A DNA stretch of 36,434 nucleotides from Lactococcus cremoris subsp. cremoris NBRC 100676. Its GTDB lineage: Bacteria > Bacillota > Bacilli > Lactobacillales > Streptococcaceae. The stretch lies in contig NZ_BCVK01000021.1 of the NCBI RefSeq assembly GCF_001591705.1, positions 1 through 36,434 on the forward strand, in the 5' to 3' direction. The notes below the pieces were generated by a model. The model saw nothing but the letters and a program-made list of their open reading frames with translations, was not told the DNA's origin and searched no databases. This document shows, in pieces, positions 16,744 to 35,865 of the stretch. Every line of letters begins with the position of its first letter. Position 1 is the stretch's first letter. The position numbers were made by a program, and so were the translations under genes.

Positions 16744-18093
16744 TTATGCTTTTTTCTTGCGGTAACTAAAGTAAGACAAAAGGCAAATAACCAAGGCAAA
16801 GACGGACAATGTCCAAGGATTTGTGATAATTTGCATGATAAACACGAGGCTTAAAGCGATAAGTACTACAAGTGTTGCCAATTTAACAAACCAATTTGTG
16901 ACTTCTTTATGTTTAAAATACAAAACTAAAGCAGCAACTAATAAGAGAATCCATACGATTGAAATGGTAAATGAGATTGAACCGGCGACAAATTGCCAGA
17001 AACCATCACCCAAAACAGCTGATAAAAGAACTCCGATAAATAGAACAAATGAAGAAACTAAAATCGCATTCGTTGGCACCTGATTTTTTGATAATTTACC
17101 TAATTTTTTACCCACATAAGTGCTTGAACCTTGAATTCGAGAATAAAGTGAACGTGAAGTAGCATAAATTGCCGAATTCACGGCTGAGAAAATAGCAATA
17201 ACAATAATTACAAGTACAATTTTATCTGCGTGAGGAATTCCAACTCGAGCAAAAATTGTCGCAAATGGACTAGCGGCGTCTGGATTTGACACTTCGCTCC
17301 ATGGCAATAAATGCAAGAATAAAAAGATTGGAATAACATAAAAACTAATAATCCGAATTAAAACGCCTCGAATAGCTCTCGGAATAGCCACTTTTGGATT
17401 TTCTGTTTCAGCAACTGTAATGGCTGCCAATTCAGAACCACCAAATGAGAAAATAACGACTAATAGTGAAGTTAAAAATCCTGAAAAACCATTTGGAGCA
17501 AAACTTGGTGCTGTACTTTTCGTAGTTACTTTTTGAGCACTATCGGCAACAAAACCAAGATGAGCATCATTGATAACCAATAAATAAATACCCAAAGCAA
17601 TCAAAAGTAGGATAACAGCGACCTTGATAAAGGCCAACCAATATTCCATTTCGGCAAAAGCTTTGACTGACCAGAGATTAATTGCCGTTCCAAGAACCGC
17701 AACAACCAAAGCAAAAACCCAAAGTGGGACGCCAGGAATTAGCATAGCAAGGAAAGTTGAAACTCCCGCTTCTTCTGCGATGAGGACCGCCATCCAAGTT
17801 GCCCAGTAAACCCAGTCTGCAAAATGCGCCCAATGATCTCCAATAAAAGGAGCAACAACTCCAGCCATCCCAGCTTTATGGTCATCTTGATGAATGACCA
17901 TTTTTCCAACACCATACATGACGACATAAAGGGTCAGCCCAGCTAAGACGTAGGAGAGCAGCACACTTGGCCCTGCTTGTGCGATGACTTTACCAGAACC
18001 TAAAAATAGTCCTGATCCAATCGCTCCCCCAAGTGAGAGCATAACAATGTGACGAGTCTTTAAAGAAGACTTCAAGCCTGTAGAATTTTCCAT
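16744..18093 (-). CDS. fywP: Aromatic amino-acid permease-like APC transporter
   Basis: A membrane amino-acid:proton symporter of the APC superfamily, about 449 residues with roughly 12 hydrophobic helices. The first helix carries SLGGAIGSGLFLGSG, the substrate-binding glycine motif of the family. By overall sequence I take it as the lactococcal phenylalanine/tyrosine/tryptophan transporter FywP (YsjA); the Phe-Tyr-Phe-Trp leader peptide upstream supports this independently. A longer frame starts at 18162, but the ribosome binding site GAGGA six bases before ATG 18093 and the family N terminus (MENSTGLKSSLKTRHI) fix the start. Expression is probably controlled by the attenuator at 18219-18347. 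Confidence 0.75.
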   Translation of the reverse strand: MENSTGLKSSLKTRHIVMLSLGGAIGSGLFLGSGKVIAQAGPSVLLSYVLAGLTLYVVMYGVGKMVIHQDDHKAGMAGVVAPFIGDHWAHFADWVYWATWMAVLIAEEAGVSTFLAMLIPGVPLWVFALVVAVLGTAINLWSVKAFAEMEYWLAFIKVAVILLLIALGIYLLVINDAHLGFVADSAQKVTTKSTAPSFAPNGFSGFLTSLLVVIFSFGGSELAAITVAETENPKVAIPRAIRGVLIRIISFYVIPIFLFLHLLPWSEVSNPDAASPFATIFARVGIPHADKIVLVIIVIAIFSAVNSAIYATSRSLYSRIQGSSTYVGKKLGKLSKNQVPTNAILVSSFVLFIGVLLSAVLGDGFWQFVAGSISFTISIVWILLLVAALVLYFKHKEVTNWFVKLATLVVLIALSLVFIMQIITNPWTLSVFALVICLLSYFSYRKKKA

Positions 18094-18218
18094 AAAATTC
18101 CTCTTTTCTAATGTGTGAAAGCAAAGCTTTCTTTTATAAGTTACCTTCCAGTCACCTAGCAAAACCCTGCTTGGAGTCGGTCTTTACGATTAATTTTACT
18201 TTAGAGTTGAAAGAAAGG

Positions 18219-18267
18219 TTAAAAAAATTAAAAAAGAAAGACCAGATAGTTTTTACTATCCGGTCTT
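18219..18267 (-). terminator. Attenuator terminator in the permease leader
   Basis: A 13-pair stem (18255-18267 with 18238-18250, one G-U) followed on the minus strand by a long T-rich tract, 125 bases before the permease start codon. It lies between promoter and gene, so it must be bypassed for expression. Confidence 0.85.
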
Positions 18268-18347
18268 CTTTGAATCCCGGCGCAGAAACTTGAGTATACT
18301 CAAAAGTTGTATCTACGCCAATTGCATAAACACAAACTATCTGCGCC
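18268..18347 (-). promoter_or_regulatory. Leader RNA with alternative pairings upstream of the attenuator
   Basis: Segment A (18347..18334, GGCGCAGATAGTTT) directly follows the leader-peptide Trp codon. Segment A' (18319..18312, GGCGTAGA) is a near-copy of A's beginning. Segment B (18286..18279, TCTGCGCC) can pair with A (8 bp) or with A' (8 bp, one G-U), and A' to B encloses a further hairpin (AACTT/AAGTT). A's CAGATAGTTT is also exactly complementary over 10 bases to the 3' arm of the terminator (18252..18243). These mutually exclusive pairings are what an attenuator needs; the direction of switching is not resolved. Confidence 0.7.
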
Positions 18348-18381
18348 AAAAATAAAAGACTGTTGATTGTTGTGTTTTCAT
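18337..18381 (-). CDS. Leader peptide MKTQQSTVFYFWRR
   Basis: A 14-residue reading frame with a strong ribosome binding site (AAGGAG, five bases before ATG 18381). It ends in Phe-Tyr-Phe-Trp-Arg-Arg followed by TAG (18339..18337). The four consecutive aromatic codons sit just before the regulatory stem, as in classical ribosome-mediated attenuation leaders, and the downstream gene is an aromatic-type amino-acid permease. Confidence 0.75.
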   Translation of the reverse strand: MKTQQSTVFYFWRR

Positions 18382-18410
18382 GCGGACTCCTTTTCTTAAT
18401 TTTTTTATAA

Positions 18411-18440
18411 TTATACTTTTTTATTGACAATAATGCAAGG
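18411..18440 (-). promoter_or_regulatory. Promoter of the leader-permease transcript
   Basis: Minus strand TTGCAT, exactly 17 bases, TATAAT, then about 35 bases to the leader-peptide ATG. Confidence 0.65.
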
Positions 18441-18448
18441 GGGCAATC

Positions 18449-18495
18449 AAAAAAAAATACTGACAGAAATTTTTGAAATTCTGTCAGTATTTTCT
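18449..18495 (-). terminator. Terminator of the oxidoreductase gene, made from an inverted CTGACAG pair
   Basis: AATACTGACAGAA...TTTCTGTCAGTATT stem with a T9 run on the minus strand, beginning at the stop codon. Confidence 0.8.
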
Positions 18496-19412
18496 CAGCT
18501 CAACATTTGGGCAATGATTTCATGCGATTTTAAAATATTTTTTTGTTTAAGTTCTGTCAGTAACTCTTCTCGATTTTGACCATCAAATTTTTCAACTGCC
18601 TGAGTCATTGCTGAAATTATTTCATCAAATCCTCGATTATAAGTGGCACTTTTCCAATCACTAATTCCAAATTTTTGGCGGTCAATTCCTGTCATTTTTT
18701 CAAGTTCTGTCAGCTCTGATAAACGGAGAGTTGCATTGGGACTTTCCACTATAAATTCTTCTGTAAAAGCTCCTGCTTCTAAATTCATCGTTGCAATCCC
18801 GCTAGTCGTCGCGGTTTCTAACATAACAATCGCTCGTGTTAAGAGCCCATTTTTATTCTTTTTAAGTGAATAATTCACTTCTAAAATTTCATCATCTAGC
18901 AAATAAATCAAGGTGTCAAGCGGATGAATAAAAATATCATACATCGAAAAAGTGATTTTGTCACTCGCAGAATTCGCTAAATTTTTGCTTACTCTCACCA
19001 TATTTTTTTCTGTTAAGGCTTTTAATTTAGCAGTTTGTGGTGCAAATCTACGATTAAAGGCAACAACAAATAAAACATTTTTTTGCCTTGCTAACTTTTG
19101 TAATTTTTTTACCTCAGCAAGATTTTCGGAAATCGGTTTATCCATTAATACCGGAACCCCTGCTGTCAGATATCTTTTGGCCAATTCAAAATGTTGGCTT
19201 GTCGCAGCTTGGATAATAACTAAATCAACCGTTTCAAGCGCTGATAAATCTTCTGTTGCGTATTCAAATTTATACTGCTTACGAACTTTTTCGGCTTTAT
19301 CCCACTGACGAGAATATAAAATAAAACGGTATTCTTCCTGCATTTTTGCATAAACAGGTAAATAAGCTTTGCTTGCGATATTTGATGTTGCCCCAATGAC
19401 TCCAATAATCAT
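18495..19412 (-). CDS. Gfo/Idh/MocA-family oxidoreductase
   Basis: A 305-residue NAD(P)-dependent dehydrogenase-like protein. The N-terminal Rossmann motif is GVIGATSNIASK (residues 4-15), and the family sequence VLMDKPISENLAEVKKL contains the conserved Glu/Asp-Lys-Pro (here DKP, about residue 90). A C-terminal alpha/beta substrate domain follows (FIHPLDTLIYLL). It is shorter than typical 330-360 residue members. The substrate, probably a sugar or polyol, is unknown. The start ATG has GGAG ten bases upstream. It may be co-transcribed with mazG-thiN, as only about 30 bases separate them. Confidence 0.82.
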   Translation of the reverse strand: MIIGVIGATSNIASKAYLPVYAKMQEEYRFILYSRQWDKAEKVRKQYKFEYATEDLSALETVDLVIIQAATSQHFELAKRYLTAGVPVLMDKPISENLAEVKKLQKLARQKNVLFVVAFNRRFAPQTAKLKALTEKNMVRVSKNLANSASDKITFSMYDIFIHPLDTLIYLLDDEILEVNYSLKKNKNGLLTRAIVMLETATTSGIATMNLEAGAFTEEFIVESPNATLRLSELTELEKMTGIDRQKFGISDWKSATYNRGFDEIISAMTQAVEKFDGQNREELLTELKQKNILKSHEIIAQMLS

Positions 19413-35673: not shown

Positions 35674-35865
35674 GTTCGTTCTCCTTCTAATATGATGTGA
35701 AAGTTGGCTAAAATTTAGCCCAACTTCTTTTTTAAAGAAAAACAAAAGCGGAACGACAATCTCGCCCCGCTCATGAAAACATTCGTTTTTGAATAATTCC
35801 ATTTGTTTGCCCAGGGCTATAACCTCTAAGGCGAGAAGCGGGTGCTTCTGCTTTTCAACTCTATT
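35674..35865 (-). promoter_or_regulatory. infC leader RNA with attenuator
   Basis: The leader contains AGAAGC-ACCC-GCTTCT (hairpin), then TCTCGCC (35836..35830), which is exactly complementary to GGCGAGA in the terminator's 5' arm (35766..35760). This gives an alternative pairing. The terminator itself is a nine-pair stem (35748-35770) with a T-rich tail (35747-35731). A second hairpin (35701-35726) stands just before the infC ribosome binding site. By analogy with the Bacillus L20 leader, L20 or IF-3 may control it. Confidence 0.7.

Follow-up and report, generated by a model that had tools for sequence, protein, structure and literature searches.

The permease locus and its leader region

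The window, by which we mean the whole 36,434-nucleotide stretch analyzed here from Lactococcus cremoris subsp. cremoris NBRC 100676 (contig NZ_BCVK01000021.1), encodes an APC-family amino-acid permease on its minus strand. Upstream of this gene lie a promoter, a short leader reading frame with aromatic codons near its end, several mutually complementary RNA segments, and an intrinsic terminator. The features are as follows.

18433-18438, minus strand: -35 element TTGCAT, read from the sequence, with a 17-nt spacer to the -10 element
18410-18415, minus strand: -10 element TATAAT, read from the sequence and invariant among six aligned orthologues
18387-18394, minus strand: Shine-Dalgarno (SD) sequence AAAAGGAG of the leader ORF (sequence and leader rule)
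18337-18381, minus strand: leader peptide ORF of 14 codons, MKTQQSTVFYFWRR-stop (ATG at 18381, TAG to 18337; sequence, orthologues and leader rule)
18346-18357, minus strand: sensor codons TTT TAT TTT TGG (Phe-Tyr-Phe-Trp), at positions -6 to -3 relative to the stop
18337-18347, minus strand: segment A, GGCGCAGAUAG, core GGCGCAGA, overlapping codons Trp12-Arg13-Arg14-stop; pairs with B
18324-18335, minus strand: segment 1, UUGUGUUUAUGC, beginning 1 nt past the leader stop; pairs with segment 2 (A')
18307-18319, minus strand: segment 2 (A'), GGCGUAGAUACAA, core GGCGUAGA at 18319-18312; 5' arm of the trpB-motif P1
18279-18286, minus strand: segment 3 (B), UCUGCGCC; 3' arm of P1
18260-18280, minus strand: predicted antiterminator hairpin CCGG-GA-UUC-AAA-GAA-GA-CCGG, made of the end of the B region and segment 4 (C), read by eye from the sequence
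18237-18268, minus strand: intrinsic terminator hairpin (C:D) with a U-rich tail at 18236-18227 (terminator scan, Rfam alignment and fold)
18230-18319, minus strand: match to RF04312, 49.0 bits, E 5.2e-6, from a permissive Rfam scan
18155-18202, minus strand: second conserved structured RNA element, between the attenuator terminator and the permease start
16744-18093, minus strand: APC-family amino-acid permease, fywP-like (PF00324 and permease tree)

A preliminary description of this DNA had claimed a promoter, a strong Shine-Dalgarno sequence and a 14-codon leader, and we located all three on the minus strand between 18438 and 18337. The promoter was absent from the list of a mechanical promoter scan because its -35 element matches the consensus at only three of six bases; by eye, TTGCA[T/A]-17-TATAAT precedes the leader in all six leader-bearing orthologues. 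The clear intrinsic terminator of that description was also found, at 18268-18237 with its U-rich tail, and 18050-18520 contains 3 terminator-like sites on both strands versus 0.3 per shuffle. The 116-nt RNA from leader to terminator folds to -44.4 kcal/mol versus -22.1 kcal/mol for dinucleotide shuffles (z -6.8), and its lowest-energy fold consists of A:B enclosing 1:2, plus the terminator. The 90-nt RF04312 match folds with a z of -7.7. No T-box was found, in line with the preliminary description: there was none in the window at Rfam gathering scores and none among 12 matches (E <= 5) in 18060-18480. A single RNA family exceeded its cut-off in the window, the ribosomal protein L20 leader (RF00558) at 35734-35859 on the minus strand. 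Just 3' of the upstream gene, at 18450-18493, we also noted a palindrome, CTGACAGAA...TTCTGTCAG, with a T run; A/T-rich stretches resembling this region recur elsewhere in the genome.

The permease start codon at 18093 stands 136 nt past the end (18230) of the RF04312 match. The gene had been taken for the Phe/Tyr/Trp permease FywP, and that attribution stands in part: PF00324 and homology place it among fywP-like APC permeases, while confirmation by NCBIfam failed, with no model over its cut-off. On the leader codons and homology we call the permease fywP-like and treat its substrate as predicted.

A permease search of 18 genomes of the genus gave nine orthologues at E <= 1e-150, six of which have a leader upstream (MKTQQSTVFYFWRR, MTTQQSKVFYFWCR, MKTQLFTVFYFWLR, MHHSNRSVFYFWQR, MQTTYQSVFYFWQR and MIKTHQGIFYFGQ, the last having lost its Trp codon); the orthologues of G009, G015 and G017 have no leader upstream. 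With RNA matches added, an aromatic leader precedes a related permease in 14 of the 18 genomes, its codons varying synonymously, and was not found in G009, G014, G015 and G017. These fywP-like leaders read FYFW, YFFW, YYYW or YYYY, and once (G005) FYF without Trp. Toward the N-terminus the leaders of the orthologues vary, whereas the FYF(W) block is kept, as is its spacing to the stop.

In a scan of ten named permease loci, we observed the leader in Lactococcus fujiensis, L. hircilactis and Lactococcus sp. dk101 and saw none in L. nasutitermitis, L. termiticola, two Weissella species and three Streptococcaceae metagenome-assembled genomes. An Rfam scan of the same ten loci at E <= 0.1 returned no match, although three of them (L218, L219 and L226) carry the leader, so divergent members escape the Rfam model in a search of this kind. 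The L. hircilactis leader (L016/L219) reads IFYFGQ-stop; its Trp codon is gone, and the hairpins are still visible. The window's own genome also contains a second attenuator (L048/L112, G000:C3:4197-4286, minus strand), whose leader MNNFSLRHHHLHR-stop contains HHHLHR and stands before another APC permease, which these codons predict to be a histidine permease.

Leader peptides across the RF04312 (trpB motif) family

Judged from its alignment, the window RNA is no isolated case; it is related, at some divergence, to a large family that Rfam lists under a different presumed function. Its score of 49.0 bits falls under the gathering score of 59, and it aligns to model positions 1-107 of 107 as the P1 hairpin followed by the intrinsic terminator, upstream of an amino-acid gene (the APC permease). 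Four of the 18 genomes of the genus exceed the gathering score, through other copies. According to PMC11109978, the trpB motif has more than 900 representatives in Firmicutes and Fusobacteria and lies most often before an uncharacterized ABC transporter with homology to amino-acid transporters. The text on the motif in that paper proposes a riboswitch, allows also for a protein factor or a classic attenuator, and names no leader peptide for it. Within the literature searched, the phrase "trpB motif" occurred in PMC11109978 alone and the accession RF04312 in no paper.

RF04312 was present in at least 160 of the 295 Lactobacillales genomes drawn (52 over the cut-off), from 50 of 75 genera, among matches listed to about E 1.3e-4; 1 of 14 control genomes for this draw was positive at E <= 0.001, and it was Lactococcus lactis. 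At E <= 0.05 all 18 genomes of the genus matched, but so did 4 of 14 controls, so weak matches of this kind are unreliable. A phylum-wide draw yielded only 5 of 398 genomes. From the matches listed in the three draws, minus duplicates and two antisense overlaps (G002:C12:156021 and G008:C108:47056), we assembled 199 distinct loci. We retained 191, namely those at E <= 0.01 together with L158 (E 0.04), an orthologue already known to carry the leader. The eight weak loci set aside (L150-L157, E > 0.01) lack a leader by our rule (0/8), and this split was chosen after seeing them.

The RF04312 model starts at A' and contains no leader ORF, segment A or segment 1, and therefore the frequency of leaders is independent of how the loci were found. 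Our leader rule called for an ORF with an SD, 8-45 codons long and with its stop ending between -40 and +5 of the motif start, and sensor codons were defined as Trp, three His, or three Phe/Tyr within the last ten leader codons. The rule was satisfied at 186 of the 191 retained loci and in 10.4% of 3820 dinucleotide shuffles; adding sensor codons left 185/191 (184/190 without L158) versus 1.5% of the 3820 shuffles, and a chance ORF is ruled out by this comparison. Half of the six exceptions (L116, L091 and L104) visibly carry WQSW or WQSR and fail the SD/start rule. The other three (L110, L111 and L101) look like false RNA matches; L110 and L111 have no leader by the rule, and L111 shows none by eye either.

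Typically, Trp leaders end in W-Q-N/S-W-R-R-stop. Of the leaders, 103 have a Trp codon at -6 and 85 have one at -3, while among the retained loci His codons occupy mainly -6 to -2 and Phe/Tyr codons mainly -7 to -4. Three matches of the phylum-wide draw lie outside Lactobacillales: the two probably false ones (L110 and L111) and L108 (G668:C31; RF04312 at 52 bits), in which an FF-rich leader precedes a sodium-dependent NSS/SNF transporter. The best-scoring trpB motif of the order draw (L018, G081:C1) has a group II intron reverse transcriptase downstream, and no trpX was seen within the stretch fetched.

Sensor codons and downstream genes

We clustered the downstream genes by BLAST and scanned cluster representatives for families. 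Representatives over the cut-off were trpB (L032), hisC (L147) and aroE (L084), and L137 matched Pfam TrpP. Four of the 141 members of the TrpX-like cluster were scanned; L028, L022 and L107 exceeded the NF041285 cut-off, and L210, which has an FSYF leader, fell below it. The class table covers 188 loci (those other than L110, L111 and L101), 185 of them with a rule-based leader.

Leaders with Trp as their only sensor residue occur at 133 of 141 loci in the TrpX-like cluster, 5/5 in the trpB cluster and 2/2 in the trpP cluster. The rest of the TrpX-like cluster comprises the three WQSW/WQSR leaders failing the SD rule, three FYW leaders and two FSYF leaders. His leaders precede hisC (1/1), a polar-amino-acid ABC permease cluster (7/7), a YjeM-type transporter (1/1) and 10 of 23 APC permeases, the remaining 13 of which follow FYFW, YFFW or YYYY leaders. 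Altogether, Trp-only leaders make up 140 of 145 rule-based leaders in the trpX, trpB and trpP clusters (the other five are not Trp-only) versus 0 of 36 in the other clusters, a difference with a Fisher p of 6e-33 when kinship is ignored; four of the 185 leaders, which precede an Opp-like protein, an intron enzyme or no gene at all, were outside this test. Among the other clusters, two genes are named independently of the codons: aroE, behind a YYFSYFR leader, and hisC, behind an HHHHLHR leader. The hisC leader (L147, G005:C45) reads MILLSTLSHHHHLHR-stop, even though PMC9413887 reports T-box control for the his operon of L. lactis.

Because the sensor codons match the amino acid of the gene wherever that amino acid is independently known, the RF04312 family is best explained, on these comparisons, as a leader-peptide attenuator with exchangeable sensor codons and not as a metabolite riboswitch. 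What is kept is the amino acid rather than the RNA sequence, since synonymous codons replace one another (TTT 46/TTC 7, TAT 44/TAC 18 and CAT 85/CAC 19 over the final eight codons) and FYF reshuffles to YFF or YYY. The claim of an aromatic-codon leader and attenuator ahead of an amino-acid permease thus gains support from the orthologues and from the fit of codon to gene across the family, and we put the probability that the window element is a ribosome-mediated transcription attenuator at roughly 90%.

For the permeases, the leader codons predict rather than confirm the substrate. In the permease tree, the ten His-leader permeases form one branch (100/100), apart from 17 with aromatic leaders and three that are leaderless. 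Two TrpX-cluster proteins, L105 and L210 (the latter below the TrpX cut-off), stand behind FSYF leaders without Trp, which predicts that their substrate is Phe/Tyr rather than Trp. A YYYWC leader (L145) is followed by a GNAT gene and then an APC permease; an assignment of the first of these as chorismate mutase was wrong, since the gene has a GNAT domain.

Alternative pairings, proposed switching and related systems

We compared the pairing energy of each locus's own segments with that of segments swapped between genomes at 180 loci (150 and 152 distinct), excluding stops less than 8 nt before the motif; the sequences are related, and kinship was ignored. Segment 1, absent from the preliminary description, pairs with segment 2 at -11.6 kcal/mol on average versus -8.6 when swapped (lower in 165/180) and -4.7 when shuffled, and in 135 of the 150 distinct loci its pairing begins 0-1 nt past the stop of the leader. 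In the window, this duplex has 12 bp and -14.5 kcal/mol. The A':B pairing of P1 averages -15.7 kcal/mol and is stabler than 1:2. For A:B, the mean of -12.6 kcal/mol compares with -10.4 when B is swapped (lower in 120/152) and with -7.3 for synonymous-codon shuffles (lower than their mean in 144/152); the window duplex reaches -19.1 kcal/mol, and the pairing is weak in G012 and G002 (-7.2 and -6.9). This pairing can explain why leaders so frequently end in TGG CGT AGA TAG. The earlier observation that B pairs with either A or A' therefore applies in the window and, for both pairings, across the family.

The 3:4 pairing has the weakest comparative support of 1:2, A':B, A:B and 3:4. Its own mean is -11.6 kcal/mol versus -10.1 swapped (lower in 133/180) and -6.4 shuffled; own pairing is weaker than the swapped mean in L112, L133 and L147 and equal to it in L122. 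The window value is -10.8 kcal/mol versus a swapped-partner mean of -8.1. As for the compensatory changes proposed earlier as a check, most positions of 1:2 and 2:3 show several pair types among the 150 distinct loci. Taken as comparative evidence, these results leave the terminator, 1:2, 2:3 and A:B well supported and 3:4 moderately so.

The leader and pairing data bear directly on other ways in which this RNA could work. A metabolite riboswitch, in which an amino-acid-related ligand bound to P1 would decide on termination and the leader ORF would be a bystander, would agree with the ranking of the trpB motif as strong riboswitch candidate SRC-39-1 in PMC11109978, with the good conservation of P1 and with the several pair types found at each of its positions. 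However, pairing with segment 1, A and C can explain much of that conservation, and the same P1 and terminator precede Trp, His and aromatic-pathway genes, so that one pocket would need to accept several ligands. Leader ORFs are, moreover, near-universal and their codons change along with the gene, and we regard a riboswitch as very improbable. A classical attenuator with A:D as its antiterminator, which the ribosome itself would mask or expose, is at least as hard to sustain. The 10-base match between A and the 3' arm of the terminator (D), noted in the preliminary description, is real in the window and is also present in G007, but by eye there is none in G012, and across relatives own A:D pairing is barely better than swapped (-8.29 versus -7.73 kcal/mol, lower in 92 of 152 distinct loci). 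On this comparison we reject A:D as the antiterminator and give the idea only a few chances in a hundred.

Sensing through the nascent peptide deserves equally little credence. Here, the C-terminal residues would arrest the ribosome near the stop upon binding of a free amino acid in the tunnel, as in TnaC, and the W-x-x-W-R-R repeats close to the stop in the Trp class would suit such an arrest. Yet the peptide is wholly exchanged between loci (FYFW, HHHLH, YYYY, YYFSYF) while the register stays roughly constant, and single-Trp leaders such as RWQSH-stop occur. The WRR itself is largely accounted for by the pairing of TGG CGT AGA TAG to B.

We return to ribosome-mediated attenuation on sensor codons, for which we propose a particular order of switching. 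We infer its ribosome positions, kinetics and response to starvation, and hold this exact order to be slightly better than an even bet. The 14-codon leader would be translated by a ribosome close behind RNA polymerase. On a shortage of charged tRNA-Phe, tRNA-Tyr or tRNA-Trp, that ribosome would stall at the FYFW codons, hiding segment A and leaving segment 1 accessible to pair with A'. With A hidden and A' occupied, B would be free, and its end could pair with the terminator's 5' arm as the antiterminator, allowing transcription of the permease. When amino acids are ample, the ribosome would reach the stop and hide segment 1, so that A':B and the terminator form and transcription ends. If the leader is untranslated, A:B and 1:2 can form and the terminator would be retained. 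The preliminary description feared that stalled and stopped ribosomes could not be told apart. Both may indeed cover A, but they would differ in segment 1, which had been overlooked and can discriminate between them.

The starved state must be kinetic under this scheme, with segment 1 keeping hold of A' while the RNA is being transcribed, because A':B is stabler than 1:2 and the window RNA without A (18338-18274) has a lowest-energy fold that contains A':B and not 1:2. The isolated 61 nt from B onward likewise fold into the terminator rather than the antiterminator. The footprint of a ribosome extends about 12 nt past the first base of the A-site codon. By this value, stalls at codons -4 and -3 agree best with the scheme, and a stall at codon -6 would expose about 9 nt of A.

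More broadly, the trpB-motif RNAs may constitute a codon-programmable attenuator platform that is widespread in Lactobacillales, has been retargeted to Trp, His, Tyr and Phe genes, acts as an AND gate and, in the permease mRNA of Lactococcus, is followed in series by a second structured element; we lean toward this view by a small margin over its opposite. Retargeting would require the exchange of a few codons whose spacing to the leader stop hardly varies, comparable to specifier exchange in T-boxes. Only a ribosome stalled within the sensor window would turn the gate on; it would be off with a ribosome at the stop or with none.

Ribosome-mediated attenuators with control codons in a leader peptide, mutually exclusive hairpins and an intrinsic terminator are known from the enteric trp, his and phe operons, and the window system has the leader, the terminator and, by prediction, the hairpins in common with them. 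It differs from them in its proposed discriminator segment right after the stop, in an A and an A' that can each sequester the antiterminator strand, and in that most targets of the family are transporters. In lactic acid bacteria, amino-acid genes are best known for T-boxes, and our results suggest that these bacteria also use a switch that reads translation with a few sensor codons. The P1 hairpin (A':B) and terminator of RF04312 are shared with the window; the leader ORF, A and segment 1 lie outside the Rfam model. The trpB motif, published as a riboswitch candidate and an orphan so far, has over 900 reported representatives and would in this way gain a concrete proposal for its function.

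The preliminary description also suggested that such an attenuator might be undescribed. The leader peptide of this RNA is unreported in the literature searched, where most subscription journals were missing, but the RNA is already Rfam RF04312 and leader attenuators are known in other Firmicutes. His leader attenuators have been described in bacilli, the B. cereus group, Peptostreptococcaceae and Lutispora, and Erysipelotrichales (PMC9413887; for hisS/hisZ in bacilli, PMC2965389); they likewise combine a His-codon peptide with a terminator and occur in different taxa, PMC9413887 (2022) reporting T-boxes for His genes in Lactobacillales. A Phe-codon leader with a terminator before an aromatic pathway gene, as here, is found in uORFC-13-1, although before a different gene, aroF, and in other taxa, being reported from Acholeplasma and environmental sequences only (PMC8632094). 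TrpX of Streptococcus suis is part of a Trp uptake system whose trpXYZ operon is under a T-box (PMC9382623); the kind of target and the attenuation in response to Trp shortage are the same, whereas that RNA reads the tRNA directly. The T-box scan in PMC9382623 gave none for S. pyogenes. The main text of an Enterococcus transcriptome paper (PMC7724050) contains no mention of tryptophan, trp, attenuation, leader peptide or premature termination.

If the codons are read correctly, leaders could predict the substrates of uncharacterized transporters, among them the TrpX paralogues with FSYF leaders, the NSS transporter behind FFNNHF, and the permease and ABC transporter behind HHHxH leaders. Exchangeable sensor codons would also help to engineer food-grade strains.

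The read-through mRNA of the permease contains the second element, a conserved fold around UUAAUC...GACUCCAAGCAGGG. We aligned 13 sequences (12 distinct), picking the structure by eye from the same sequences. Six of its nine pairs change on both sides, and covariation was 0.426 versus 0.212 for shuffles, a value reached in 0 of 500 of them; the count of further pair types was not above shuffles (235/500). It had no Rfam match at the thresholds used (E <= 5 in 18060-18480; E <= 0.1 at the ten named loci) and is possibly an orphan riboswitch or a protein site. Searched with a model built from the alignment, 13 of the 18 genomes of the genus each have a single copy, next to the aromatic leader, and 11 of these 13 had supplied sequences for the model; among the 295 genomes of the order draw, the model matched the window's genome only. 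In Weissella oryzae and W. muntiaci, whose sequences were part of the alignment, the element precedes the orthologous permease too, there without the attenuator.
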